From assembly GCA_947508055.1 (NCBI GenBank), contig CANNRR010000007.1:1-49917 (forward strand): a stretch of 49,917 nt of DNA, in the 5' to 3' direction. Source of the DNA: Burkholderiales bacterium. Its GTDB lineage: Bacteria > Pseudomonadota > Gammaproteobacteria > Burkholderiales > Burkholderiaceae_C. Both the position numbers and the translations under genes were made by a program. Positions 36,548-49,917 of this stretch are shown here, piece by piece (the first letter of the stretch is position 1; the number at the start of each line of letters is the position of its first letter). Below the pieces are notes generated by a model, which worked only from the letters and a program-made list of their open reading frames with translations, was not told the origin of the DNA and made no database searches.

Positions 36548-36561
36548 TTGACAAATATCAA
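36548..36561 (+). promoter_or_regulatory. FNR/DNR-type box upstream of nosZ
   Basis: TTGAC-AAAT-ATCAA fits the FNR/DNR consensus TTGAT-N4-ATCAA with one change. Its centre (36554.5) is 41.5 bases upstream of a start predicted from the TATGCA at 36584-36589, the spacing of a class II activated promoter. Direct repeats of CAAATTTG-like sequence surround it. Confidence 0.7.
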
Positions 36562-36723: not shown

Positions 36724-39015
36724 ATGAAACGATTGAACAGAACAGCCGTATCGCTGGTGGTTGGCTGCATGGGCTTTGCCGCCTCGGCCGTGTGGGCTGC
36801 TGATAGTCTGCAGGATGTGTTGAAAGAGCGTGGGCTCAGCCAGCAGGATTTGTTGGCCGCGGCCAAGACTTATGTGCCCACCGGAAAACGTGACGAGTAT
36901 GTTGCTTTCAGTTCGGGGGGGCAGTCCGGTCAAGTCATCGTTTACGCCATCCCGTCCATGCGTATCCTGAAATATATCGGTGTGTTCACCCCTGAGCCAT
37001 GGCAAGGGTACGGCTTTGATGAAAGCTCCAAAAAGGTTCTGGCCGGTGGCAAGATTGACGGAAAAGACATCACATGGGGTGACACCCACCACCCGGCCAT
37101 TTCCGAGACAAATGGTGAATACGACGGCCAGTTCCTGTTCATCAATGACAAGGCCAATCCCCGCCTGGCGGTGATTGACTTGCGTGACTTTGAAACCAAG
37201 CAAATTGTAGTCAATCCGATATTCAAATCCGAGCATGGGGGCGCCTTCGTCACCACCAATTCTGAATATGTGATTGAAGCGGCCCAGTATGCGGCACCAC
37301 TGGAGAACAAGAAGTTCTACCCGCTCGAAGAGTTCAACGAAAAATACCGTGGTGGTATCACCTACTGGAAGTTTGACCGCAAGGAAGGTCGCATCGACAC
37401 GGCCAAGTCCTTCTCCCTTGAACTGCCTCCTTACTCGCAAGACTTATCCGATGCTGGCAAGCTGGCTTCTGAGGGCTGGTCTTTCACAAATTCCTTCTGC
37501 TCCGAGCGCTACGTTGGCGGTATCGAAAAAGGCCGCCCCCCGTATGAGGCCGGCTGTTCTGCCAAGGACACTGACTACATGCACGTGATCAACTGGAAGA
37601 AGGCTGCAGAGCTGGTTGCCGCGGGCAAAGCCAAGAAGATCAATGGCCATGACGTGTTGATGATGGAAACCGCCATCAAAGAAGGTATCCTGTTCCTGAT
37701 TCCCGAGCCAAAGTCACCCCACGGTGTGGACGTCACTCCAGACGGAAAGAACATCATCGTCGCTGGCAAACTGGATACCCATGTGTCGGTTTACAGCTTT
37801 GAGAAAATCCAGGCTGCGATCAAGGCTGGCAAGTTTGAATCCAAAGACCCGTACGGCATTCCAGTGATTGCCATGAAGGACGCCATCGCTACCCAAGTGT
37901 CCCTTGGTCTTGGCCCACTACATACTCAGTATGACAGTAAGCCGTGCATCGCTTACACGTCGCTGTACGTGGACTCACAAGTTGCCAAGTGGAACTACTG
38001 TGAAGGCAAGGTGCTGGACAAGCTTAGCGTGCACTACAACATTGGTCACCTTATGACCATGGAAGGTGATTCGACCAAGCCTGCAGGTAAGTACCTGGTG
38101 GCGTTGAACAAGCTCGCCATCGATCGTTTTGTACCCGTTGGCCCTTTGCATCCACAAAATCACCAGCTAATCGATATCAGTGGCGACAAGATGCAGTTGC
38201 TGTACGACATGCCATTGCCGTTAGGTGAGCCGCATTACGTGGTGGCCATTGATGCCAAGAAGCTCAAGCCAGCAGTGCGCTACAAGGTCGGAACCGACAG
38301 TCGTACTGATCAGCCCCACCCCGGTGCTACCAAGGCTGGCGAAGAGCGCACCGTGAAGAAGGGCAACAAGGTCGAAGTGTTCGGAACACTGATCCGCTCG
38401 CACATCACGCCAGAGACCATTGAAGTCGAAGTGGGTGATGATGTCACCATCAACCTGACTAACCTGGAGCGCGCTCAGGACGAAACCCACGGTTTCACCG
38501 TTAGCACCTTCAATGTCCACGCATCGGTTGAGCCTGGTAAGACAGTTGCCGTGAAGTTCAAGGCCGACAAGGAAGGCGTCTATCCTTACTATTGCACCGA
38601 ATTCTGCTCAGCGTTGCACCTCGAAATGCAAGGTTACTTATTGGTGAAGCCTAAGGGATGGAAACCCACCAAGACAGGCGGTTTGGCTGCGCAAAACTAC
38701 ACCGAGGCGGACTACAAGGCGACATTGAAGAAAGTGGCTGATACGCAGGCGATTATTGACTCTGTAGTGGCCTACATCACCAGCGTGAACTACAAGGACT
38801 TCCCGGAAGTCGTTGCGATGGTTGACGACGCCTTTGACCAATTGGGCAAAACCAAGGACATCAAGGTTAAGCACGAAGCAGCTTTCGCCAAAAAAGATTG
38901 GGAAAACGCTAATTTGTGGGCCGAGCAGGTATGGCAGTACCAGGTCAAGACTGCTGACCTTGGATTGCGGGCCAAGACGTTCCTTGAACAAAATGGCGCC
39001 AAAAAGGTCAAGTAA
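36724..39015 (+). CDS. nosZ: Nitrous oxide reductase, clade II type
   Basis: NosZ reduces N2O to N2 in the periplasm. The 763 residues start with a plain Sec signal peptide (no twin arginine), the mark of clade II enzymes. In the beta-propeller, likely CuZ histidines are H122/H123 (DTHHP), H171 (SEHGG), H333 (SPHGVD), H400 (GPLHT), H437 or H442 (HYNIGH) and H504 (GEPHY). The cupredoxin domain holds CuA: H589, C624, C628, H632 and M635. At the carbonyl-ligand position between the cysteines there is Glu626 where clade I enzymes have Trp. About 120 residues follow CuA, helical and without a CXXCH, so there is no fused cytochrome as in Wolinella. GGAGAG lies upstream of the ATG. Confidence 0.97.
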   Translation: MKRLNRTAVSLVVGCMGFAASAVWAADSLQDVLKERGLSQQDLLAAAKTYVPTGKRDEYVAFSSGGQSGQVIVYAIPSMRILKYIGVFTPEPWQGYGFDESSKKVLAGGKIDGKDITWGDTHHPAISETNGEYDGQFLFINDKANPRLAVIDLRDFETKQIVVNPIFKSEHGGAFVTTNSEYVIEAAQYAAPLENKKFYPLEEFNEKYRGGITYWKFDRKEGRIDTAKSFSLELPPYSQDLSDAGKLASEGWSFTNSFCSERYVGGIEKGRPPYEAGCSAKDTDYMHVINWKKAAELVAAGKAKKINGHDVLMMETAIKEGILFLIPEPKSPHGVDVTPDGKNIIVAGKLDTHVSVYSFEKIQAAIKAGKFESKDPYGIPVIAMKDAIATQVSLGLGPLHTQYDSKPCIAYTSLYVDSQVAKWNYCEGKVLDKLSVHYNIGHLMTMEGDSTKPAGKYLVALNKLAIDRFVPVGPLHPQNHQLIDISGDKMQLLYDMPLPLGEPHYVVAIDAKKLKPAVRYKVGTDSRTDQPHPGATKAGEERTVKKGNKVEVFGTLIRSHITPETIEVEVGDDVTINLTNLERAQDETHGFTVSTFNVHASVEPGKTVAVKFKADKEGVYPYYCTEFCSALHLEMQGYLLVKPKGWKPTKTGGLAAQNYTEADYKATLKKVADTQAIIDSVVAYITSVNYKDFPEVVAMVDDAFDQLGKTKDIKVKHEAAFAKKDWENANLWAEQVWQYQVKTADLGLRAKTFLEQNGAKKVK

Positions 39016-39043
39016 GCGTTACTACGTTAAGTGAGTTGTATAT

Positions 39044-39070
39044 CGGGGGGGCGACGTAATCGCCCCCCCG
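39044..39070 (+). promoter_or_regulatory. Very stable hairpin between nosZ and the cytochrome gene
   Basis: CGGGGGGGCG and CGCCCCCCCG form a perfect 10-bp stem, seven pairs of them consecutive G:C, with an ACGTAAT loop. AAGTTCTTT follows rather than a U-run. It is more likely a 3' stabiliser or processing barrier for nosZ mRNA than a full terminator. Confidence 0.65.
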
Positions 39071-39093
39071 AAGTTCTTTGAAAAGGTAAAACC

Positions 39094-39420
39094 ATGACGA
39101 CAAGATTGTTTCTTTCCGCAGTAGTTGCAACTTTGGTGTCCGGCGCCGCATTGGCTGATGGTGCATCGCTATACGCCGAAAAAACGTGCATCGCTTGCCA
39201 CGGTAAGGAGGGGAAAAAGCCTCTCACGCCGACTTACCCCAAACTAGCAGGACAAAACGCTGCCTACATGGAACAGCAAATGCTCGACATCAGGAGTGGT
39301 GCGCGTGCCAACGGCAGCAGTGCTGCCATGAAAGGTGTCATGGTCAACCCCGAGGGGGACCAACTGGTGTCTGATGCCGATATCAAGGCAATCGCCCAAT
39401 ACCTCTCTAAACTGAAGTAA
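39094..39420 (+). CDS. Monoheme c-type cytochrome (c553-like)
   Basis: A 108-residue exported protein: signal peptide to about residue 21, heme motif CIACH (C32-H36), the YPKLAGQNAAYMEQQM segment typical of class I cytochromes, and a likely Met ligand in the AAMKGVM region. Placed directly after nosZ, it probably carries electrons to CuA. AAGG lies before the ATG. Confidence 0.92.
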   Translation: MTTRLFLSAVVATLVSGAALADGASLYAEKTCIACHGKEGKKPLTPTYPKLAGQNAAYMEQQMLDIRSGARANGSSAAMKGVMVNPEGDQLVSDADIKAIAQYLSKLK

Positions 39421-39454: not shown

Positions 39455-40198
39455 ATGAAAAAAATTCTTCTACTGGCACTTTCGTTGGCGTTAGCCCCAG
39501 CCTTCTGTGCTGCTGGTGGCCCACCGCCGGCCACGCAGGCGGGTATCGAGGCCAAAGACTACAAGTGGAATGCGCAGGAGGGTGAAAAAATTGAAGCCCT
39601 CAAGCTCAAGGGAACCGCCAAAGATGGGAAAGAGGGCTATGAAGTGTGCGGAGCGTGCCACTTGCCCTCAGGAGCGGGTCGGTCTGACGGCACATTCCCA
39701 CAACTTGCTGGCCAGCACACGACGGTTTTGATCAAGCAGATGGCTGACATCAGGGCAGGCTTGCGTGACAACCCAACCATGTACCCGTTCGCCAAGGAAC
39801 TGACTGACGCTCAAGAACTGGCTAACGTTTCCGCCTACATCGAAAGTTTATGCATTCCAGCGGTTCATGGCATGTATGAAGGCCCTGATGCCGCCAAGCA
39901 GATTGCGGATGGTAAGGCGATGTACGAGAAGGAGTGCATCGAATGCCACAAGGCCAATGGCGAGGGCGTTAAGGACAAGTTTTACCCCGTGCTCGCTGGT
40001 CAGCATTACAAGTACCTGCTGCGTCAGATGACCGAGATTCGCGACGGGAAACGCCGCAATGCGAATCCAGACATGGTGACCATCATCAAGAAATATGACA
40101 ACGCGCAATTGATCGCCATTTCTGCTTACCAGTCAAGCCTGGTCATGCCAGGTTCGATGTGCAAGGCGAGCGTTGCCAAGCCAGTCAAGAAAAAATAA
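39455..40198 (+). CDS. Diheme c-type cytochrome
   Basis: The 247 residues have a signal peptide (to about residue 20) and two class I cytochrome domains in tandem, with heme motifs CGACH (C65-H69) and CIECH (C161-H165). Both are followed by an LAGQH segment. An Ala/Lys-rich tail ends the protein. Cytochrome c4-like proteins of this type link quinol oxidation to periplasmic reductases. Together with the monoheme protein it likely bridges NosGH or a bc1 complex and NosZ. GGAG precedes the ATG. Confidence 0.92.
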   Translation: MKKILLLALSLALAPAFCAAGGPPPATQAGIEAKDYKWNAQEGEKIEALKLKGTAKDGKEGYEVCGACHLPSGAGRSDGTFPQLAGQHTTVLIKQMADIRAGLRDNPTMYPFAKELTDAQELANVSAYIESLCIPAVHGMYEGPDAAKQIADGKAMYEKECIECHKANGEGVKDKFYPVLAGQHYKYLLRQMTEIRDGKRRNANPDMVTIIKKYDNAQLIAISAYQSSLVMPGSMCKASVAKPVKKK

Positions 40199-40207
40199 AC
40201 CACAGAC

Positions 40208-41200
40208 ATGCAAGACCAGACCAAACAGAATCGCCTGATCACCATCCTCACCCTAGTAGCCTTGGTGGCCATGATCAGCGCCTTTTTTGCGCCAATCTGG
40301 TGGGTTTCACTCACCGCGCCCAACTATCCAAAAGACGCCTTTCCAGACGGAATTCGCATTCATTTTCACTTTGACGTGGTGAAAAATGGATGCAGCGCAG
40401 TGGGTGCCAATACGCGCATGGGATCAGAAACACTGCAGGCCGACTTGGGGCATGATACAGAGCGCTACAACCCGATTCTGGACGCCAAAAAGGACGTCAA
40501 TAGAGGCGCGGCGGGTCTGGATTGCGTTCACGAGATGAATACCATCAACCACTACGTTGGCATGTTCCCCATTGCCACCGGCGCACCGGTCGAGAAACCG
40601 CTGGCCAAGTTTTTCTTTGGCTTCTTCGCAGTAATGCTGTTGGGCTTTATTACCCCGGAGGGAAAGCGTCGCCAACTTGTTTTGGGCAGTGGTTTCACCG
40701 CAGTTGCTGTCTGGATGCTGGTGCACCAATTTGCATTGGGCCACTTGGCCGAACACGTTAAGAACTATACGGCCGAGGCTGCTACGTTTTTTAATGAGCC
40801 GGCGCGCATCAAAGTGTGGGGCGACAACGTCACGCTCTACAGCCAGATTGCGATGGGTGGCCTCATCGCAGCTATGGTGGTCGTATTATTTGGGGTTGCG
40901 AAGTTTCGGCGATTTGTGTTGTTGTTAGTACTCGTTCCAAGCTTGCTGCCTCTGTATTTTGTGATCGAGTATGCCGGCTGGCTATGGTTCTTTGGCCACA
41001 ATATGCATGCGTGGGGTGCTTTCACGGTCAAGCCGTTCATGCCGACGCTGTTTGGTGAGGGTAAGGTGGCTCAATTTTCTACCTATTCCTATCCATACTG
41101 GGGTTATGGCCTGTTGATGGTGGTTTTCGTTTGTTTGACGCTGGCCATGCTGTTGCGTCGGCGCCAGTTCCGTGAAGCTGATCAGGGACTTGGGGCATAG
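40208..41200 (+). CDS. nosB: NosB-type membrane protein
   Basis: A 330-residue inner-membrane protein with five or six spans (about 12-33, 134-150, 160-180, 215-235, 240-262 and 295-315). It has a large periplasmic loop after the first span (DGIRIHFHFDVVKNGCSAVG...GLDCVHEMNTINHYVGM) containing histidines and two cysteines. Position directly between nosZ and nosD, length and topology fit NosB, a protein special to clade II clusters whose function is unknown. Assigned by context and general appearance. Confidence 0.8.
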   Translation: MQDQTKQNRLITILTLVALVAMISAFFAPIWWVSLTAPNYPKDAFPDGIRIHFHFDVVKNGCSAVGANTRMGSETLQADLGHDTERYNPILDAKKDVNRGAAGLDCVHEMNTINHYVGMFPIATGAPVEKPLAKFFFGFFAVMLLGFITPEGKRRQLVLGSGFTAVAVWMLVHQFALGHLAEHVKNYTAEAATFFNEPARIKVWGDNVTLYSQIAMGGLIAAMVVVLFGVAKFRRFVLLLVLVPSLLPLYFVIEYAGWLWFFGHNMHAWGAFTVKPFMPTLFGEGKVAQFSTYSYPYWGYGLLMVVFVCLTLAMLLRRRQFREADQGLGA

Positions 41201-41201
41201 C

Positions 41202-42578
41202 ATGGGGGTCAAGCGTTGGTTGATTGTGCCCACCTTGTTGTTGGGTATGACCAGTTTGTTGGTGGCGCGTACCACCGACACGGACGACGACACCAATCGA
41301 CCCCCCGCTCTGGGCGCGACTGCTGATCTCTCCACCGCGCCCCGTGTAGGAGTGGATCGCCCCAAGCCAACATTTCCGTTGTACGAACGTGACAAGCGGG
41401 TGCATGGATTAAAACCCTTTCAGGCCTTGGTGGATGCGGCCAAACCGGGTGACGTTTTGCGTCCTCCTGCGGGGGCGTATGCGGGGCCGGTGGTACTGAC
41501 CAAGCCGTTAACGATTGAAGGTGGAGGTTCGGTCACCATTGATTCGGGAGACCGCGGAACCGTCTTTTCGCTTCAGGCGGATGGCGTTGTGCTGCGCGGC
41601 TTGCATTTGACGGGTTCCGGTGACTCCCATGACACAGACGACTCCTGCCTGGACGTGCGTGGACATCGAAACGTATTGGAAAACCTGGTCATTGATAACT
41701 GCCTCTTCGGGATCGACCTGAAACAGTCGAATGACAACGTCCTTCGCAAAAACACGGTACGTTCCAAACCGGTTGATTTGGGTGTGCGTGGTGACGGGTT
41801 GCGCCTGTGGTACAGCCACCGCAATCTGATTGAAGCCAATGAAATATCCGATTCCCGCGACATGGTGGCGTGGTACTCCAACGACAACATTTACCGACGA
41901 AACGTCGGCACGCGCAGCCGCTACTCTATTCATTTCATGTTCGCCCGAGACAACATTGTTGAGTACAACCGCTTTTATGACAATGCCGTGGGCGTGTACT
42001 TCATGTACACAGAAGGCGGCGTGTTGCGTCACAACCTGATCTCGCACGCGACCGGCGCGACTGGCATGGCGATTGGCTTCAAGGAAGCCAGCAACACCTT
42101 GATAGAGGGCAACGAAGTCATTTACTGTGCGGTTGGCATAGGGTCCGATCTGTCGCCGTTCCAGCCCGATAGCGAGATATGGGTGAAGAACAACCGGTTC
42201 GCATTTAACGGCATTGCCGTGCAATTCACGAGTGAACTCGGGGGCAACGTTTTAACGGACAACATATTTGAAGGAAACCTGACCAATGTAGTGCAGGCCG
42301 GGCGCGGAAAGGCCGGCCTCAACGAATGGAGCGGCAACTACTGGGACGATTACAAGGGCTTCGACCGTGATGGCAACGGCACCGGAGACACGCCATACGA
42401 ACTATATGCATACACTGACCAAATCTGGATCGAACTTCCCATCGCCCGGTTTTTCAAGACCGCCCCGGCAATGGAGTTGCTTGATTTTCTCGAACGTCTG
42501 GCGCCATTCTCCTCACCTGAATTGACGCTGAAAGATTCAATTCCGAAATTCGTCAAGCCAAACTGGGTTCTTGGATGA
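41202..42578 (+). CDS. nosD: NosD, periplasmic copper-site maturation protein
   Basis: A 458-residue exported parallel beta-helix protein with CASH-type repeats (N-V-L-x-x-N and NTLIEGNEVIYC coils) across residues 90-380. With the NosFY transporter it matures the CuZ centre. I use the ATG at 41202, one base after the nosB stop and followed by a signal peptide (MGVKRWLIVPTLLLGM). An ATG at 41172 would overlap nosB. Its 3' end overlaps nosG by ATGA. Confidence 0.93.
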   Translation: MGVKRWLIVPTLLLGMTSLLVARTTDTDDDTNRPPALGATADLSTAPRVGVDRPKPTFPLYERDKRVHGLKPFQALVDAAKPGDVLRPPAGAYAGPVVLTKPLTIEGGGSVTIDSGDRGTVFSLQADGVVLRGLHLTGSGDSHDTDDSCLDVRGHRNVLENLVIDNCLFGIDLKQSNDNVLRKNTVRSKPVDLGVRGDGLRLWYSHRNLIEANEISDSRDMVAWYSNDNIYRRNVGTRSRYSIHFMFARDNIVEYNRFYDNAVGVYFMYTEGGVLRHNLISHATGATGMAIGFKEASNTLIEGNEVIYCAVGIGSDLSPFQPDSEIWVKNNRFAFNGIAVQFTSELGGNVLTDNIFEGNLTNVVQAGRGKAGLNEWSGNYWDDYKGFDRDGNGTGDTPYELYAYTDQIWIELPIARFFKTAPAMELLDFLERLAPFSSPELTLKDSIPKFVKPNWVLG

Positions 42579-43429
42579 CCGATAGCGAAACCCCAAAATC
42601 AGACAGGCCCCCAAAAGTCGGGAAGTCGAAAATGACCAGACAAGACCGGCGCCGCTGGATGCGCACAGTTCTGCTGGCTGGTGGCATTTTTGGTGCTGCG
42701 TTGTCGGGCTATATGCCACTGGCATATGGACAACGAAAGCGATTGCGCCCGCCCGGCGCGCTGGACGAGAAGGACCTATTGGGGTCCTGCATCAAATGCG
42801 GGCAATGTGTGCAGGTGTGCCCCGTACAAGCGATCAAATTAGCAGACCTGGTCGATGGGTTTGGCGTGGGCGTGCCCTACATCGATGCACGTCAACAGGC
42901 CTGCGACTTTTCGTGCGATGCAGTGCAATGCATTTTGGCCTGCCCGACCGGTTCCCTCGCCTACATCAAACCGACATTTCTGCCGGTCCGCGCAGGCGCT
43001 CTGCTGGCGGCCAAACCGGTTCTACTTGCCAAAGAGAAGGATCTGGAGCCCACCCTCAATTTGAAGGAACGCATGGGTATTGCGCGGCTGGTTCGGCCGG
43101 AGTCGTGTCTGGCGGTGCAGGGCAAAGGTTTCAAAGGTCAAACCAGAGGGCCGTCATTCAAGGGACGCATGCGGTACATGACGGTGGACCGTTGGACACC
43201 CATTGCGGTAGCGGACCATCCTTACGACGTTCCCCAGTGCAATTTGTGCGTGTCCGAGTGTCCGGTGAAAGGGGCTATCTCGATTGAAACCTTCGTCGGC
43301 AGCGATGGACACAGGCGCAATCAACCCATAGTCCACGAGCCCTGTGTGGGTTGCGGAGTGTGCGAGATGGTGTGCCCGACCGAGCAGGCTTGCATTGTGA
43401 TTGAAGCGCGCGAGGAGTGGAAAGTATGA
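42575..43429 (+). CDS. nosG: NosG, periplasmic Fe-S protein (NapG-like)
   Basis: A 284-residue protein with a Tat-type N-terminus (DRRRWMRTVLLAGG) and four [4Fe-4S] sites: CIKCGQCVQVCP (72-83), CDFSCDAVQCILACP (110-124), CNLCVSECP (222-230) and CVGCGVCEMVCP (257-268). NapG homologues pair with membrane NapH to oxidise menaquinol. In clade II clusters NosGH is the proposed electron entry to NosZ. It overlaps nosD and nosH by four bases each. Confidence 0.93.
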   Translation: MTDSETPKSDRPPKVGKSKMTRQDRRRWMRTVLLAGGIFGAALSGYMPLAYGQRKRLRPPGALDEKDLLGSCIKCGQCVQVCPVQAIKLADLVDGFGVGVPYIDARQQACDFSCDAVQCILACPTGSLAYIKPTFLPVRAGALLAAKPVLLAKEKDLEPTLNLKERMGIARLVRPESCLAVQGKGFKGQTRGPSFKGRMRYMTVDRWTPIAVADHPYDVPQCNLCVSECPVKGAISIETFVGSDGHRRNQPIVHEPCVGCGVCEMVCPTEQACIVIEAREEWKV

Positions 43430-44406
43430 GCGATTTGCACCACCAGCGTTTTTTCGAGCAAATCGGGATATTGTTCGGTCGTGAACCCAAGAAACCGTTG
43501 GAATTCACCGAGCGCGCGGAACAAGTGCATGAGTTAAAGCGCATGGCCAACAAGACTGACGTGCGTGCCGCCATCATGCTGGCGCACAAAACGCCACATG
43601 GCAACAACTGGCGTAATCGCCGCTGGACATTCTTGGTAGCAATCAACCTTTTTTTCGTTGTCTCCTTTGGTTTTGATATCCAGATACTGGAGGGCTCGCT
43701 GACAGCATCTCGATTGATTGGTTTTCACCTGATTGACCTGAACTCGGCGTTGCAGGTGATGCTGGCGCACAAGCACATTATTGTTAACTTGCTAATCGGT
43801 ACCATGACCGTTTTGGTGATCTGGATACTGTTGGGTGGGCGAACGTTTTGTTCGTGGGTTTGTCCCTACCACCTGATTGCCGAGTGGGCGGAGAAACTGC
43901 ACCTTTTTCTGGCGCGCAAAAAGTTTGTGACCGACCAAAATATGAACCGCAGGTTGCGCACTGCCTTCTGGCTCATCTTTGCGCTGGCAACTTTCGGCTC
44001 TGGCTATACCGTTTTTGAGGCAATTTCGCCCACCGGCATTCTGTCGCGCGCGCTGATTTATGGGCCGGGTGTCGCACTGCTTTGGGTGGCCGCCCTGTTG
44101 CTTTTCGAGATAGTGATTTCACGCCGGGCGTGGTGCCGCTATGCCTGCCCCATCGGTTTGACGTATGGTGTGGTTGGCATCTTGTCGCCGGTCCGTATCA
44201 AATACAAGCTCGACGGATGCTTTCATGAAGGAGACTGTCGTAAAGTCTGTCTGGTGCCGCATGTGCTGGAGACCGTTGTGAAAGGTCGTGCAGTGGATAC
44301 CGAGGTGACCTTGGGCCCAGATTGCACCCGTTGCGGTATGTGCGTGGATACTTGCCCCACAGGCTCATTGACTTTTGACATCAAGGGTCTGTCCAAACTG
44401 TTATGA
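43426..44406 (+). CDS. nosH: NosH, membrane quinol dehydrogenase (NapH-like)
   Basis: The 326 residues have four spans, and two CxxxCP motifs of the NapH/NosR type follow membrane segments (FCSWVCPYHL and WCRYACPIGL). A C-terminal [4Fe-4S] site (CTRCGMCVDTCP) is joined by CFHEGDCRKVC. NapH oxidises menaquinol and passes electrons to NapG; the same is expected here. GGAG precedes the ATG at 43426, which overlaps the nosG stop. An upstream GTG at 43417 is less likely. Confidence 0.92.
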   Translation: MSDLHHQRFFEQIGILFGREPKKPLEFTERAEQVHELKRMANKTDVRAAIMLAHKTPHGNNWRNRRWTFLVAINLFFVVSFGFDIQILEGSLTASRLIGFHLIDLNSALQVMLAHKHIIVNLLIGTMTVLVIWILLGGRTFCSWVCPYHLIAEWAEKLHLFLARKKFVTDQNMNRRLRTAFWLIFALATFGSGYTVFEAISPTGILSRALIYGPGVALLWVAALLLFEIVISRRAWCRYACPIGLTYGVVGILSPVRIKYKLDGCFHEGDCRKVCLVPHVLETVVKGRAVDTEVTLGPDCTRCGMCVDTCPTGSLTFDIKGLSKLL

Positions 44407-44446
44407 GGCATACGCCGCCGCTGTTCCACCTGAGATTATTGCCATT

Positions 44447-45307
44447 GTGATTCGTTTTCAAAACCTAACCAAAACCTTCAGGCGCGCCCGGATTCTCGAC
44501 AACGTCAACCTGCAGGTGGGCCTGGGCGAGCGTGTCGCGCTGATCGGCTCCAACGGCGCTGGCAAAACAACCCTGATTCGTTGTTTGTTGGGCGAGTATG
44601 TTCATGAGGGGCTGGTTCAGATTGATGGCCGCAACCCACGCCAGCAACGCACCGAGGTTTTGGGCATGATAGGTTTTGTGCCGCAGTTGCCCCCGCCTCT
44701 CAAAATGCCGGTGGGTCAGTTGATTGAATTCTCAGCTGCACTGTGCGGCACTGCGCCGCAACGCATACACGAAATTGCAGACCGTTTGGGGCTGGATTTG
44801 AGCGGCATCCTGGCACGCCCCTTTGTCAAACTTTCGGGCGGTATGAAGCAAAAACTGTTGATTGCCATTGCACTGGGGCGTGACGCCAAAGTGCTGGTCA
44901 TGGATGAGCCAGCGGCCAACCTTGACCCCCAAGCTCGCAAGATCTTCTTTGAATTGCTGGCCGAGCGCGCGAGCAGTGCGACCATGCTCATTTCCAGTCA
45001 CCGAATCAATGAAGTCTCTTCACTGGTCAGTCGCGTGGTGGAGCTTGATATGGGAAACGTTGTGCTGGACGAGTCAGTGTCTGACGATGTTGCGCTAACT
45101 GGCATGCTGCGTGCGAGGGTCACTAGCAAGCGCCAGGAACCGGCATTGAACAAAGCGCTGGGTCTGTGGGACTTTCAAGCACTTGATGCAGACCTCACCG
45201 AGTGGGAGGGTCTGGTTGCAGGGCCGGACCGGTTGCGCTTTTTGGGGATGGTGTCGCGCTACGTGTCGGTCGTTAACCACGTTTCCATGACTGAAATCGA
45301 GTTATGA
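44447..45307 (+). CDS. nosF: NosF, ABC transporter ATPase
   Basis: The 286 residues carry Walker A GSNGAGKTT (about 37-45), the Q-loop in GFVPQLP, signature LSGGMKQK, Walker B VLVMDEPAANLDP and the switch histidine in ISSHR. NosF powers NosY for delivery of a sulfur species or other component for CuZ. I use the GTG at 44447 (VIRFQNLTKTF), since the frame upstream overlaps nosH and has no family match. The ribosome site is weak. The stop overlaps nosL by ATGA. Confidence 0.94.
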   Translation: MIRFQNLTKTFRRARILDNVNLQVGLGERVALIGSNGAGKTTLIRCLLGEYVHEGLVQIDGRNPRQQRTEVLGMIGFVPQLPPPLKMPVGQLIEFSAALCGTAPQRIHEIADRLGLDLSGILARPFVKLSGGMKQKLLIAIALGRDAKVLVMDEPAANLDPQARKIFFELLAERASSATMLISSHRINEVSSLVSRVVELDMGNVVLDESVSDDVALTGMLRARVTSKRQEPALNKALGLWDFQALDADLTEWEGLVAGPDRLRFLGMVSRYVSVVNHVSMTEIEL

Positions 45308-45828
45308 GACGACGCCACATACTGGTCTACGGATTTGCGTTGACACCCATGGCGTCTGTCCTGCTCACTGCGTGCGGCGAGGACAAGGACATGCCCAATG
45401 CCATGGCGGTGTTCAAGTGGGACCGCGATGTCTGTACCCGTTGCCGAATGGCAATTTCTGACCGCCGCTTTGCCTGCCAGATCCGCGGCGGCCCTAAAGA
45501 CACTGTCTTCAAATTTGACGACATTGGTTGCGCTGCCACATGGCTGGCTGAAAAAGGCAAAGAGTACCCGTGGATGGCGGATGCCACAACCCGCATCTGG
45601 GTAGCGGAGTTTGCCAGCGCGGGCAAGAACTGGCTGGAAGCAACCACCGCGCACTATGTCGGCGGCAAGACGTCGCCCATGGGTTACAACTACGCAGCCT
45701 ACGCGCAGCGACAGAGCGACAGTATTTCTTTTGACGCCATGGGACAGAAAACCTCTGCGACCTGGCCAGCCAATTGCCATCCGGGCAGCGTCAAGACGGC
45801 ATCTGCCGCCTCTGTACTTTCGAAATGA
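45304..45828 (+). CDS. nosL: NosL copper-chaperone lipoprotein
   Basis: The 174 residues begin with a lipoprotein signal ending LLTAC (Cys24). The NosL domain has the Cu(I)-binding CTRCRMAISD motif and the later FKFDDIGCAATWL and YVGGKTSPMGYN segments. NosL hands copper to apo-NosZ in the periplasm. It sits between nosF and nosY; nosFL-Y is one of the known orders. Confidence 0.94.
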   Translation: MRRRHILVYGFALTPMASVLLTACGEDKDMPNAMAVFKWDRDVCTRCRMAISDRRFACQIRGGPKDTVFKFDDIGCAATWLAEKGKEYPWMADATTRIWVAEFASAGKNWLEATTAHYVGGKTSPMGYNYAAYAQRQSDSISFDAMGQKTSATWPANCHPGSVKTASAASVLSK

Positions 45829-45844
45829 ACGAAGATCTGACACG

Positions 45845-46672
45845 ATGAAACAACTCTGGCTAACGGCCAAACTCGATATGGCGGAGTCTTTGCGTGCACG
45901 CTGGTTCCTTATTTACACACTGGTTTTCGGCGGGATAGTGGCTTTGCTGTTCCTGTTCGGTTTGACTGAGTCACGCGTGCTGGGCTTCATTGGTCTGTCG
46001 CGGCTGCTCGTGACCTATATCCAACTGACCATGGCCATCTTGCCCATCTTTGTGCTGATAACCACCGTGCGCTCGGTGGCGGGTGACCGGGAGGCCGGTG
46101 TTTTTGAGTACCTGCTGTCCCTGCCCGTGTCACTGGGGGCCTGGTTTTGGGGCAAGATCTTGGGGCGCTACCTTGTCATTTTCCTTCCCGTGTTCGGTGC
46201 CATGCTGATGGCCGTCGTGATCGCTCTGGTGCGAGGCATTCCGGTACCCTGGGGCATTTTTGGTTACTACACCGCCTTGCTTGCGGTCATGGCGGCCTGC
46301 TTCTTGGGTATTGGCATGTTGATTTCCTCGCTGGCCCGCAGTACCGATATGGCACAGGGTGCGGCCTTCATGGTCTGGCTCACGTTTCTGCTGTTCCTCG
46401 ATCTGATTCTGCTGGGCGTCATGATTCAGGGTAAGGTGGCACCCGAGATAGCCGTCATGATGGCGCTGGCCAATCCGCTGCAGGTGTTCCGGACCGCTGC
46501 GTTGGCGCTGTTTGACCCGCAACTTATCGTCTTGGGTCCGTCGGCCTTTGTGATTCTGGATACCTTTGGCGTGTTGGGGTACAAGATTTTCGCCCTGGCC
46601 TATCCACTCGCTTTGGGCATAGCGTCAGCCGTCGCGGGGTTTGTGTTTTTCAGACGCGGAGATTTGCCGTGA
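45845..46672 (+). CDS. nosY: NosY, ABC transporter permease
   Basis: A 275-residue permease with about six spans. TVRSVAGDREAGVFEYLLSLPVS is the cytoplasmic coupling segment typical of NosY/ABC-2 proteins, and FRTAALALFDP precedes the last spans. It forms the NosF2Y2 transporter with NosD. The start at 45845 follows nosL by 16 bases. The stop overlaps the thioredoxin gene as GTGA. Confidence 0.94.
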   Translation: MKQLWLTAKLDMAESLRARWFLIYTLVFGGIVALLFLFGLTESRVLGFIGLSRLLVTYIQLTMAILPIFVLITTVRSVAGDREAGVFEYLLSLPVSLGAWFWGKILGRYLVIFLPVFGAMLMAVVIALVRGIPVPWGIFGYYTALLAVMAACFLGIGMLISSLARSTDMAQGAAFMVWLTFLLFLDLILLGVMIQGKVAPEIAVMMALANPLQVFRTAALALFDPQLIVLGPSAFVILDTFGVLGYKIFALAYPLALGIASAVAGFVFFRRGDLP

Positions 46673-47229
46673 CTGGTCTTCCCGCGGGTTGGCTACGAGG
46701 CCCGCGCCTGCTTGCTATTCTGGTTTTTTTGGCGGGGCATGTCGTCGTTGCGGGTAACAATGCAGTGGCAGCCAGCACCCCCGACAGTGCCGTGTTGTTT
46801 GCAGCCTCTTTGATTGATCTGGATAGTCAGGCAGTGACCCTGTCCAAATACCGCGGAAAGCCGTTGATTGTTAATTTCTGGGCACGCTGGTGTGGTCCTT
46901 GCAAGGTCGAAATTCCAGAACTGGTCAGTTTGCAAAAACGCAATACTGGGGTCGAGGTGCTCGGTCTTAATCTGGAAAACAATGCCCCTACTGTGCGCGA
47001 TTTTGCCTTTGCCTACGACGTTAACTATCCTGTTTTTTTAACCAAGGAGCCAGGCTTAGCATTGATGCAGGCCCTGGGTAATAGCAAGTCGGTGCTGCCG
47101 TTCACTGTGGTCATCAATAGCCAGGGCACCATCGTCAGCAGCCATGTGGGCGCCCTGTCGCGTGAGAAACTGGACGCTGCGGTTCAACTGGTTTTGAGGC
47201 CAATGCTCGAACCCAAGCAGGCGCCATGA
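46669..47229 (+). CDS. TlpA-like periplasmic thioredoxin
   Basis: The 186 residues have an N-terminal membrane anchor or signal (about 12-36) and a thioredoxin fold with the WCGPC active site (C75, C78) and the cis-Pro loop SVLPFTVVIN. In this place it probably keeps NosL or CuA cysteines, or the heme-binding cysteines of the cytochromes, reduced. That is inferred from context. It starts at a GTG overlapping nosY and overlaps ubiE by ATGA. Confidence 0.9.
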   Translation: MTGLPAGWLRGPRLLAILVFLAGHVVVAGNNAVAASTPDSAVLFAASLIDLDSQAVTLSKYRGKPLIVNFWARWCGPCKVEIPELVSLQKRNTGVEVLGLNLENNAPTVRDFAFAYDVNYPVFLTKEPGLALMQALGNSKSVLPFTVVINSQGTIVSSHVGALSREKLDAAVQLVLRPMLEPKQAP

Positions 47230-47963
47230 CGACCGAACATGACATTAATCACAGTTTTGGCCGTGAGGCGGTCAATCAGGCGCAAAGACGTGAGCGTATT
47301 CGCATCGTTTTTACTGTGGTGGCGCGGCGCTATGACCTGATGAACGACCTGATGAGCATGGGCATTCACCGGCTTTGGAAACGCACACTGGCCCGGCGCG
47401 TGGGGCATGTGCAGGGGCGGGTGGTCGATCTGGCTGGCGGCACGGGCGATGTTGCGCGACTCCTGTTGGGGCCCGGGCGCGATGTAACGGTGTGTGACCC
47501 CAGTTTGGCCATGATGGAAGTGGGTCAGCAGCGCAAAGGTGGCACGCAATTGCAGTGGCTGGCTGGTGAGGCCGAAAATTTACCAGTGGCTGATGCCAGT
47601 GTCGATTTGCTGACCGTCTCCTTCGGCTTGCGTAATGCAACCCATCTGGAGAAAGCCTTGTCCGAGGCTTTGCGCGTCCTCAAGCCCGGCGGACGTTTTG
47701 TTTGTCTCGAATTTTCGCAACCTGCTTTTTGGCTGGCGCCGTTCTACAACTTGTATTCCTTTCTGGTCATTCCGCGCTTAGGGGCTGCTGTTGCGGGGGA
47801 GCCAATGGCCTATCAATACCTGGTCGAATCCATTCGGCGCTTCCCCACCCAGCAAGGTTTTGCTGACCTGATGCGTGCCGCGGGCTTTGCTGACATCCGA
47901 TGGGAAAATTTGTCCTTTGGAATTGCCTGCTTGCATTTTGGTGTCCGTCCCCATGAAGACTGA
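47226..47963 (+). CDS. ubiE: UbiE/MenG-type quinone C-methyltransferase
   Basis: The 245 residues show the UbiE/COQ5 signatures: VVARRYDLMNDLMSMGIHRLWK, the SAM loop DLAGGTGDVARLL, VSFGLRNATHLEKALSEALRVLKPGG, and the C-terminal YQYLVESIRRFPTQQGFADLMRAAGF. The enzyme methylates 2-polyprenyl benzoquinols and/or demethylmenaquinol. Next to menA, a demethylmenaquinone role (MenG) is more likely than general ubiquinone synthesis, whose gene is normally with ubiJB. It overlaps menA by 11 bases. Confidence 0.9.
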   Translation: MTTEHDINHSFGREAVNQAQRRERIRIVFTVVARRYDLMNDLMSMGIHRLWKRTLARRVGHVQGRVVDLAGGTGDVARLLLGPGRDVTVCDPSLAMMEVGQQRKGGTQLQWLAGEAENLPVADASVDLLTVSFGLRNATHLEKALSEALRVLKPGGRFVCLEFSQPAFWLAPFYNLYSFLVIPRLGAAVAGEPMAYQYLVESIRRFPTQQGFADLMRAAGFADIRWENLSFGIACLHFGVRPHED

Positions 47964-48867
47964 CCGCCCATCCGGTTTGTTGTCCAGCCCTGGCCAGAGC
48001 CTTGTCGTCTGGTGGACGGCCATCCGCCCTCGCACACTGAGCATCGCCGCGACACCTGTGGTGTTGGGTTCAGCCCTGGCCTGGTCTGACGGTGCAGCGC
48101 CATTGTGGCCTGTGCTATTGGCTACGCTGGCCTGCGCCCTGTTGATACAGGTGGGTACCAATTTGCACAATGATGTCGCTGATTTTGAGCGGGGCACTGA
48201 CCGGCCCGACCGCGCTGGTCCGTTGCGCGTGACCGCCGCCGGATGGGTTCAGCCGCGTCGCGTGCGAATAGCCGCCCGGTCAAGTTTTGCCTTGGCATTG
48301 TTGCTGGGCTTCTATCTGGTGGTGCAGGGCGGTTGGCCCATTCTGTTGGCGGGCCTTGCATCGTTGGTAGCAGGTTGGTCCTATTCGGGTGGCGAACGGC
48401 CTATTTCGCACACTGCATGGGGCGAGGTGTTTGTGCTGGTATTTTTCGGTCTGGTTGCCGTGGCGGGCAGCCACTGGCTGCAGCATGGCGATGCCCTGGT
48501 CGATGCCCTGCTGTGTGGCACCATCGTTGGCCTGCCCGCCGCTGCGGTGCTGTTGGTCAATAATTTTCGTGACGTGGAGAACGACTTGCGCAGTGGTCGG
48601 CGCACGCTGGCCGCGCGTCTGGGCGATGCAGGCTCGCAGCGCGCCTATGCGGCTATGGTGCTGCTTCCGGTTGTGTTGGCTGGCGTACTGGCCTCGCATG
48701 GGCGCCCGGGTGTGTTGCTCGCTGGCCTGTCCGCCCCCTATGCCTGGTCGCTCTGGCCGCGCCTGCAACGCAGCGCGGGTGGCGCCGCATTGAACGCGCT
48801 GCTGGGTGCCACCGCACGCTTGGGTTTGATACTGGGTGTCTTGTTGTCCGTGGGTATTTTTCTGTGA
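47953..48867 (+). CDS. menA: 1,4-Dihydroxy-2-naphthoate polyprenyltransferase
   Basis: A 304-residue UbiA-superfamily enzyme with about eight spans. The first Asp-rich motif is NDVADFERGTD (73-83), followed by DRAGPLRVTAAG, which is characteristic of MenA. The second motif is NNFRDVENDLRSGRRTLA (203-220), with SHTAWGEVFVLVFFGLVAV between. MenA replaces the carboxylate of DHNA with a polyprenyl chain, giving demethylmenaquinone. A second specificity for another naphthoate cannot be excluded. The ATG at 47953 lies within the end of ubiE, and the stop overlaps the next gene as GTGA. Confidence 0.9.
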   Translation: MKTDRPSGLLSSPGQSLVVWWTAIRPRTLSIAATPVVLGSALAWSDGAAPLWPVLLATLACALLIQVGTNLHNDVADFERGTDRPDRAGPLRVTAAGWVQPRRVRIAARSSFALALLLGFYLVVQGGWPILLAGLASLVAGWSYSGGERPISHTAWGEVFVLVFFGLVAVAGSHWLQHGDALVDALLCGTIVGLPAAAVLLVNNFRDVENDLRSGRRTLAARLGDAGSQRAYAAMVLLPVVLAGVLASHGRPGVLLAGLSAPYAWSLWPRLQRSAGGAALNALLGATARLGLILGVLLSVGIFL

Positions 48868-49724
48868 GACCGGATGTGGTGCAGACGCTGTTGCCTTTAG
48901 CTCTGGCGTTCATCATGTTTTACCTTGGTCTGACCCTGGTCGTTGGGGATTTTCGGAAGGTTGCCGAGCGCCCCAAAGCGCTGTTGGTCGGGCTTGTTGG
49001 GCAGGTGCTTTTGGTGCCGCTGGCCGGCTTTGCCGTGGCGAACTGGAGTGGCCTGTCTCCGATGATGGCGGTAGGCCTTATGGTGCTGGCGGCATGCCCC
49101 AGTGGCGTAAGTTCGGGGTTGTTGACACACTTGGCCAGGGGCGACACGGCGTTGGCGATTTCCTTAACGGCGGTGACCAGCCTTGCCGCGGTGCTGACGC
49201 TACCGCTGGTCGTGGGCGTCTCGTTTCAGTTTTTCATGGCCAGTCAACTGGGCGTGCAATTGCCGGTTGTGGCGATGGTCAAGGGCATTTTTATTCTCAC
49301 CACATTTCCGGTTTTAGTGGGCATGGTCTTGCGCTGGCGCCTTGCCAGTCATGTCATGCGCGCGGAGCCGATCGTTGGAAAAATAACAACCACGCTGTTC
49401 GTGCTGATTGTGCTCAACACCTTCTGGGATCAGCGCCAAGTGCTGCAGGACAACCTGTCGCTGCTGGGGCCTGCTGTGCTGGTGCTCAACCTGTTCATAC
49501 TGGGCGGTGCCTATTTACTGTCGCAGGTGACCCGGTTGAATCGACGTGATCGCATCGCCGTTGTCACTGAATGTGGTTTGAAGAATTCTGCCCTTGGCAT
49601 TGTCGTTTGCCTGCAATGGCTGCAGCAACCGGCCATGAGTGCGCCCAGCGTCGTCTACGCACTGTCGATGAACGCATTTGCTTTGACGTTTGTCGTTCTG
49701 ATGCGCAAAACCACGAAGCTGTGA
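48864..49724 (+). CDS. Bile-acid:Na+ symporter (BASS) family transporter
   Basis: The 286 residues form eight to ten hydrophobic segments. Features of the BASS fold are FYLGLTLVVGDF near residue 20, AACPSGVSSGLLTHLARGD (about 78-96, the first crossover) and ECGLKNSALGIVV (about 235-247, the second crossover). Members move organic anions, with sodium, from bile acids to keto acids and pantoate. A naphthoate such as DHNA would be a sensible cargo next to menA; this is hypothesis. It begins with a GTG overlapping menA and ends with GTGA shared with the next gene. Confidence 0.82.
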   Translation: MRPDVVQTLLPLALAFIMFYLGLTLVVGDFRKVAERPKALLVGLVGQVLLVPLAGFAVANWSGLSPMMAVGLMVLAACPSGVSSGLLTHLARGDTALAISLTAVTSLAAVLTLPLVVGVSFQFFMASQLGVQLPVVAMVKGIFILTTFPVLVGMVLRWRLASHVMRAEPIVGKITTTLFVLIVLNTFWDQRQVLQDNLSLLGPAVLVLNLFILGGAYLLSQVTRLNRRDRIAVVTECGLKNSALGIVVCLQWLQQPAMSAPSVVYALSMNAFALTFVVLMRKTTKL

Positions 49725-49917
49725 ACGTGTTGCGCGCTACCTTGTTCTGGTTGTTGATCGGATTTTCTGCTGCAATTTCGTCTGCCAGTGTAGGGTCACC
49801 ATCCTTGCAGGCATTGATTGATGCGACGCCGAAGGGCGCCACGTTGAGCCTGGCGCCGGGTGTTTATCAGGGGCCGGTCAGCGTGTTGACGCCTATGGTG
49901 ATAGATGGTGGTCACGC
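49721..49917 (+). CDS. Second NosD-like beta-helix protein (5' end, cut by the window)
   Basis: The frame starts at a GTG overlapping the transporter stop and is open to the window edge (65 codons). It has a signal peptide (VNVLRATLFWLLIGFSAAISSA). Then LQALIDATPKGATLSLAPGVYQGPVSVLTPMVIDGG follows the same pattern as the start of nosD here (FQALVDAAKPGDVLRPPAGAYAGPVVLTKPLTIEGG). So it is a NosD paralogue, continuing to the right. A second, weaker GTG lies two codons later. Confidence 0.8.
   Translation, partial: MNVLRATLFWLLIGFSAAISSASVGSPSLQALIDATPKGATLSLAPGVYQGPVSVLTPMVIDGGH

Follow-up and report, generated by a model that had tools for sequence, protein, structure and literature searches.

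How can a bacterium of a ubiquinone-making family come to carry the last two enzymes of menaquinone synthesis, together with a transporter, within an operon for the reduction of nitrous oxide (N2O)? The question is raised by contig C7 of a metagenome-assembled genome (MAG) of a freshwater Burkholderiales bacterium (4.28 Mb in 389 contigs, 91.8% complete and 6.8% contaminated). The whole contig of 49,917 bases was analyzed and is called the window here; a clade II nos operon takes up its last 13 kb, and in this operon the genes ubiE (also called menG), menA and a gene for a transporter of the BASS family follow one another. In menaquinone synthesis, MenA prenylates and decarboxylates 1,4-dihydroxy-2-naphthoate (DHNA) to demethylmenaquinol, which UbiE/MenG methylates to menaquinol. 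The best-supported answer, to which we give a probability of about 0.68, is that ubiE-menA-BASS is a three-gene cassette for the salvage of DHNA, serving the clade II N2O-reducing chain in the operon of the window. BASS would move DHNA, or a very close carboxylated naphthoquinone, through the inner membrane once other organisms have made it; MenA would prenylate and decarboxylate it, a dedicated UbiE/MenG would methylate the demethylmenaquinol, and the resulting low-potential menaquinol would be meant for the N2O-reducing chain (NosG/H, cytochromes and NosZ). As to the family, its free-living members make ubiquinone according to the available part of a report on Candidatus Symbiobacter mobilis (PMC4053972). 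A preliminary description of the locus, made from its letters, had already proposed DHNA salvage. That part has gained support, with one MenA in the genome, no marker of DHNA synthesis over cut-off in 15 genomes and BASS standing in a slot of men genes, while the use of menaquinol by NosGH, an exclusive tie to nos and a position fused to the end of the operon have fared less well.

Three genes inside the nos operon

All features described here lie on the plus strand of the window. As the preliminary description had read them, the frames run from nosL (45304..45828; Pfam NosL, 25.2 bits against a cut-off of 24) through nosY (45845..46672; ABC-2 permease, named from its position) and tlp (46669..47229; a thioredoxin/ResA-like thiol-disulfide oxidoreductase by family match) into a second copy of ubiE/menG (47226..47963), menA (47953..48867) and the gene for the BASS-family transporter (48864..49724; Pfam SBF), the candidate importer of DHNA. 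Families, coordinates and overlaps were confirmed: nosY and tlp share 4 bp, tlp and ubiE 4 bp, ubiE and menA 11 bp, and menA and BASS 4 bp, if menA starts at the ATG at 47953 (its longest open reading frame opens at 47875). The operon does not stop at 49724. The N-terminal part of a second nosD (nosD2; 49727..49917), which is cut by the contig end and whole in relatives, begins 2 bp past BASS at 49727, or else at 49721. At the related locus L041, a small unknown frame comes after nosD2, and then genes for a Sco1-type protein and for a flavoprotein like that of flavocytochrome c sulfide dehydrogenase (Sco1/SenC and flavoprotein at L041 13479-15415). Because nosD2, and in L041 also the Sco1-type gene, comes after BASS, the three genes are embedded inside the nos unit.

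It is to be noted that seven other genomes (L039-L044 and G015) share the order nosY-tlp-ubiE-menA-BASS, their BASS proteins being 64-89% identical, and that the ratio of nonsynonymous to synonymous substitution (dN/dS) between the window and two relatives is 0.05-0.10 for UbiE, MenA and BASS alike. Thus, the order is not due to chance.

The UbiE of the cassette scores 253.8 bits against TIGR01934 (cut-off 158.35) and does not reach the narrower equivalog cut-offs. Two UbiE proteins over cut-off are present in 8/8 cassette genomes examined, and one in G061, which has no cassette. In a tree of UbiE, the cassette copies form a group of their own (support 98/95), next to which comes the UbiE linked to men genes in G091 (87/90), while the housekeeping UbiE proteins are separate (99/93); the cassette UbiE has an ancestry distinct from that of the housekeeping enzyme. 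MenA passes two models (TIGR00751, 160.1 bits, cut-off 102.15; NF004751, 275.1 bits, cut-off 264), keeps both aspartate-rich motifs when aligned with E. coli MenA, and is the only MenA found in the window genome, where a search for a second one gave no other match; the other two UbiA-family genes there are CyoE and a protein whose best match is UbiA. The 15 BASS-linked MenA proteins form one group with those of G091 and L045 (100/99), within which the branching does not settle the positions of G091 and of L051 from Rhodocyclales.

Genes of DHNA synthesis in related operons

What stands in the place of the transporter in other operons? In G091, a genome of another Burkholderiales family rated 100% complete, the order (L079, G091:C1:780000-797500) is nosF-nosL-nosY-tlp-ubiE-menA-menB-menC, then frames on the opposite strand, and then menE-menF-menD-nosD2-cytochrome c. 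Its MenA, MenB, MenD and MenF score over their cut-offs; MenC (126 of 130.6 bits) and MenE (232 of 330 bits) fall below theirs and are named by best match. In Rhodoferax, the order is nosY-tlp-ubiE-menA-BASS-nosD2, with BASS alone between menA and nosD2. NosD2 proteins of seven Rhodoferax loci are 56-61% identical to NosD2 of G091 and 41-43% to the first NosD of the window, and by this measure the nosD2 genes of the two groups are orthologous. Since the flanks are the same on both sides, nosY-tlp-ubiE-menA and nosD2, BASS stands where G091 has the DHNA-making genes menB-C-E-F-D, and this exchange is positive support for BASS as a putative stand-in for DHNA synthesis. A third family, represented by G085 (L080/L081, G085:C46), has menB-menA-tlp-menC, then nosZ to nosY, and then ubiE-menE-menF-menD. 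The occurrence of men genes among clade II nos genes in two further families, with a different gene order in each, points to a functional tie. Most likely, the cassette would have arisen from a nos operon carrying the men pathway as in G091, in which menB-C-E-F-D were lost and BASS took its place between menA and nosD2.

A plasmid source of the cassette was also considered and rejected. Among 72,556 plasmid records, 13 match BASS (E 1e-30), all at less than 60% identity and at best 37% among the ten listed, and 21 match MenA (E 1e-20), all below 60% and with less than 80% of the query covered.

Search for DHNA synthesis elsewhere in the genomes

A complete men or futalosine pathway elsewhere in the genome, which the preliminary description had named as evidence against salvage, was looked for by its markers. 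MenA and BASS genes are adjacent in 15 distinct genomes (the window, G015, L039-L044, L046-L050, L051 and L076), 14 of Rhodoferax or Rhodoferax-like bacteria and one of Rhodocyclales (L051). Some of these genomes appear under two labels (by sequence, L039 = G519, L040 = G012, L043 = G042 and L044 = G516; also L041 = G022 and L042 = G051). MenD, MenB and MqnA/D were over cut-off in 0/15 of them, MenC, MenE, MenH and MenI lying outside the search there; MqnA and MqnD were searched as PF02621, and a part of the marker search was run at E 1e-25. The window genome thus has menA and menG without these markers of DHNA synthesis, and the same holds for the cultured Rhodoferax antarcticus ANT.BR and the strains U11-2br, BLA1 and U2-2l, none of them recorded as a MAG.

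Some candidates had to be rejected on the way. The strongest MenB-like protein of the window genome (G000:C5:45769-46533) scores 314 bits against a MenB cut-off of 342.7 and is BadI at 530 bits (cut-off 467.6); in G061 the same BadI gene lies beside a BadH-like gene. The MenB-like matches of G042, G053 and G131 are likewise BadI, at 521, 496 and 496 bits. Of 20 genomes examined for isochorismate synthase, only G015, G085 and G091 pass.

Can the search find MenD where it should be? For comparison, 18 genomes were taken in which no BASS was seen next to MenA (Rhodocyclus, Accumulibacter, Chromatiales and others; the contig of L056 ends just after menA). MenD was over cut-off in 12 of them, a fragment in one and absent in five. 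Rhodocyclus, a genus with menaquinone-8 according to the available part of one report (PMC8954225), has MenD in 3/3 genomes and is in this way a control for the search. With kinship ignored, Fisher's test gives p 1.4e-4 for MenD in 0/15 cassette genomes against 12/19 (the 18 genomes and G131), and p 5.7e-4 against 14/28, when G085, G091 and seven genomes with a more distant MenA are added.

The transporter

What would the transporter carry? It passes Pfam SBF (108.4 bits, cut-off 24.3), scores 158.6 bits against TIGR00841 'bass' (cut-off 326.3) and 87 bits against the PanS model (cut-off 400). Because the SBF cut-off is passed and that of TIGR00841 is missed, it is best described as a divergent BASS protein. 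By sequence (phmmer), its best match among solved structures is 28sv (E 4e-26), and it also matches 3zux, which is ASBT_NM (E 1e-20). A predicted model (mean predicted local distance difference test, pLDDT, 82.4; predicted template modelling score, pTM, 0.83) has as its best solved match in Foldseek ASBT_NM with bound pantoate, an organic acid (8oyg; TM scores 0.88 and 0.82, 22% identity), and 28sv is not among the Foldseek matches listed; the comparison confirms the BASS fold and not the substrate.

When 399 Burkholderiales genomes, sampled evenly across the order, were searched at E 1e-40, with at most six candidates scored per genome, eight other genomes matched, all at 35-39% identity, and no menA was seen beside these matches in the short stretches read. 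The menA-linked proteins are a subfamily of their own. Just before the LARGD stretch, they have glycine in 15/15 (L051 being partial), while 10/10 paralogues and ASBT_NM have the asparagine that is canonical in the BASS family and that we take to be part of the sodium site. DHNA is the one carboxylated substrate that MenA needs, and for this reason it is named as the candidate cargo. Whether the subfamily is a dedicated DHNA importer, a one-gene substitute for five biosynthetic genes in the nos operon that would make N2O respiration of Rhodoferax depend on a precursor from other bacteria, is in our estimate an even bet.

Occurrence with clade II nos

Clade II NosZ is over cut-off in 8/103 genomes of the genus, and a ninth genome, G519, has a NosZ fragment. 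All nine have ubiE after tlp, and the eight whose contigs extend far enough have menA-BASS as well; in the remaining one, G518, the contig ends inside ubiE. In G012, G042 and G519, nosZ and the cassette are on different contigs, and their continuity is deduced from how the genes are ordered in each piece. Another four genomes of the genus have a lower-scoring NosZ, likely of clade I, and the one that was read, G512, has no cassette.

Weighing of the reading

Several observations weigh against DHNA salvage for N2O reduction, and they are gathered here with the explanations to which they lend themselves. The first group concerns the link to nos. Six ubiE-menA-BASS loci, that of R. antarcticus included, have no nos gene in the fetched DNA (these genomes were not searched by name for nosZ), and the only NosF matches at them are distant ABC ATPases at 28-31%. 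NosGH therefore cannot be the only customer of the cassette, and the module is portable and not exclusive to nos. No common user of menaquinol was found beside the nos-less cassettes, whose neighbors are an M20 peptidase, an OHCU decarboxylase, an RND pump, TctC and others. At L051, neither ubiE nor nos accompanies menA-BASS. L045 (G131, Rhodoferax MAG BA11) keeps a menA of the cassette type with neither ubiE nor BASS beside it. At L045 (8962-10867), this menA is preceded by a gene for a hemerythrin-domain protein. Furthermore, the preliminary description had taken it as known that NapGH/NosGH-type enzymes use menaquinol. In the available part of PMC6195509, E. coli NapGH is thought to be more specific for ubiquinol and a quinol dehydrogenase role of NapGH is doubted where a Qcr complex is used, so that the quinol preference of NosGH is not a settled matter. 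The weakest steps of salvage as proposed here are the supply of menaquinol to NosGH and the substrate of BASS, which presumably imports DHNA.

From these points it could be argued that the cassette salvages DHNA as a general module, its menaquinol going to other reductases or to redox balance, and that ubiquinol feeds NosGH. This explanation touches the link to nos only and overlaps with the preferred one. The six loci without nos nearby and the ubiquinol specificity of the E. coli enzyme speak for it; against it are the nine of nine clade II nosZ genomes of the genus with at least the first gene, eight with the whole cassette, and the interleaving of men and clade II nos genes in two other families in differing orders. 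We consider it possible and rather doubtful.

The second group of observations concerns the origin of DHNA. The statistics given above rest on few independent events because 14/15 genomes are of, or like, one genus, and the limited set of markers has to be kept in mind. In 12/27 genomes the MenA match was below cut-off, and these were excluded from the counts. Five of the 18 BASS-less genomes with MenA are without MenD and one has a fragment only, for which incompleteness of assemblies may or may not account. In G133, the best MenB-like protein (232 bits, cut-off 380) reaches the cut-off neither for MenB nor for BadI. A more distant MenA-family protein is over cut-off in seven genomes (G006, G026, G032, G053, G061, G081 and G090), which have no MenD and no BASS adjacent to this protein. 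MenA without MenD was accordingly rejected as sufficient proof of salvage, since divergent MenA-like proteins without BASS are without MenD too. A long-branched second kind of MenA-like protein, with no adjacent ubiE or BASS, occurs in Rhodoferax and one other family (L082, L084-L087, from G061, G026, G053, G032 and G006, and L093 from G090). Finally, among the titles and abstracts listed nothing was found on menaquinone in cassette-bearing Rhodoferax, nor any quinone data for a cassette genome, and the main text of the genome paper of R. antarcticus mentions neither menaquinone nor ubiquinone (PMC5374385).

Is DHNA then made in the cell, by enzymes with no kinship to MenB/MenD or MqnA/D or by the products of genes that the assemblies have missed, while BASS moves an unrelated carboxylate in or out? 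An assembly can miss genes, and that of the window is 91.8% complete; alternative forms of quinone enzymes have been reported, according to the available part of PMC4746308. In G015, which carries the cassette and no MenD, one isochorismate synthase passes its cut-off (G015:C78:261386-262222, L159), though its best match is DhbC, which we presume to act in siderophore synthesis, and it perhaps serves a siderophore. Against such synthesis, MenD, MenB and MqnA/D are missing from 15/15 genomes, and their loss from every assembly is unlikely; moreover, BASS occupies the exact slot of menBCEFD. We regard synthesis in the cell as improbable. Still less probable is that MenA and UbiE act on another aromatic acid imported by BASS, with some other prenylated quinone as product: substrates shift easily among UbiA-superfamily enzymes and other Rhodoferax have the divergent MenA-like protein without MenD or MqnA/D, but MenA and UbiE of the cassette are over their family cut-offs and group with the proteins of the G091 men cluster. 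Salvage of DHNA by the cassette thus remains the explanation that we prefer.

The remaining genes of the operon

The operon has the composition of a clade II nos operon, a Sec-type NosZ together with nosB, D, G, H, F, Y and L, of which nosB, nosF and nosY are assigned by position. It starts with nosZ (36724..39015), encoding a clade II, Sec-dependent nitrous oxide reductase (TIGR04246, 918.2 bits, cut-off 625). Two c-type cytochromes follow, NosC1-like (39094..39420; Pfam Cytochrom_C) and NosC2-like (39455..40198; Cytochrom_C in two stretches) by position, and then a protein in the place of nosB (40208..41200), named from its position, without a Pfam match and conserved in relatives. Next come nosD (41172..42578; Pfam NosD, 114.2 bits), nosG for a NapG-like ferredoxin (42575..43429; best match NapG, with 125 bits against an equivalog cut-off of 269), the NapH-like nosH (43417..44406; TIGR02163, 231.9 bits, cut-off 213.05) and nosF, an ABC ATPase gene named from its position (44375..45307; Pfam ABC_tran), whose frame is listed from a TTG.

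As for expression, a weak FNR-like site, TTGAC-N4-ATCAA (36548..36561), lies 162 bp upstream of the nosZ start, with one mismatch to what we take to be the FNR consensus; the window has two such sites against 1.32 expected by chance, and 39/100 shuffles have as many. In a promoter and terminator scan of the window, the counts were no different from those of shuffles. A G+C-rich stem-loop of 12 pairs between nosZ and the first cytochrome gene (39043-39071) could separate expression of nosZ from that of the rest.

Known systems and what the cassette would mean

How does this arrangement compare with known systems? The clade II nos operon of the Wolinella succinogenes type consists of nosZ, cytochromes, nosB, nosD, nosG, nosH, nosF, nosY and nosL, and the operon of the window has this gene set in common with it but differs in that genes for the last steps to menaquinone, and one for a transporter, lie between tlp and a second nosD. 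In the operons of G091 and G085, too, ubiE, menA and a thioredoxin-like gene are mixed with the clade II nos genes; these operons differ in possessing menB, C, D, E and F and in having no BASS in the stretches read. ASBT_NM (3zux, 8oyg) and PanS share the BASS/SBF family and fold with the cassette transporter, which differs from ASBT_NM by the glycine described above.

DHNA users with menA and menG only are known in Lactobacillus and Prevotella, where, like in the cassette genomes, the late men steps are kept and the early ones are missing, and where DHNA from other bacteria has been proposed as precursor or growth factor (PMC4746308; PMC5738691). They differ in that no importer is described in the available parts of these reports, while here a transporter adjoins menA in 15 genomes, in eight of them within a respiratory operon. 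The same parts state that genes for DHNA transport are still to be annotated (PMC4746308) and that no description of such transporters exists (PMC5738691); the uptake route of L. plantarum is left open in the available part of a study from 2023 (PMC10746273). Secretion of DHNA by Lactococcus has been measured (PMC12421875). Candidatus Symbiobacter mobilis, of Comamonadaceae, has neither of the menaquinone pathways, and menaquinone-7 or a soluble precursor is proposed to reach it from its partner; it differs in living as a consortium partner, and no dedicated cassette is named in the available part of the report (PMC4053972). In a literature search that left subscription papers mostly outside its scope, neither menA with nos nor DHNA with BASS was found in this arrangement among the titles and abstracts listed, and a search by phrase for transport of DHNA gave no hit among 5.39 million papers.

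Exchange of DHNA among bacteria is thus known and the route of its entry into cells is not, and for the latter the cassette supplies a candidate gene together with hosts, including R. antarcticus ANT.BR. If BASS is a dedicated DHNA importer, it would be a transporter absent so far from the literature on cross-feeding of quinones. And if NosGH draws on the menaquinol, cassette-bearing bacteria would, in removing a greenhouse gas, depend on neighbors that leak a vitamin precursor.

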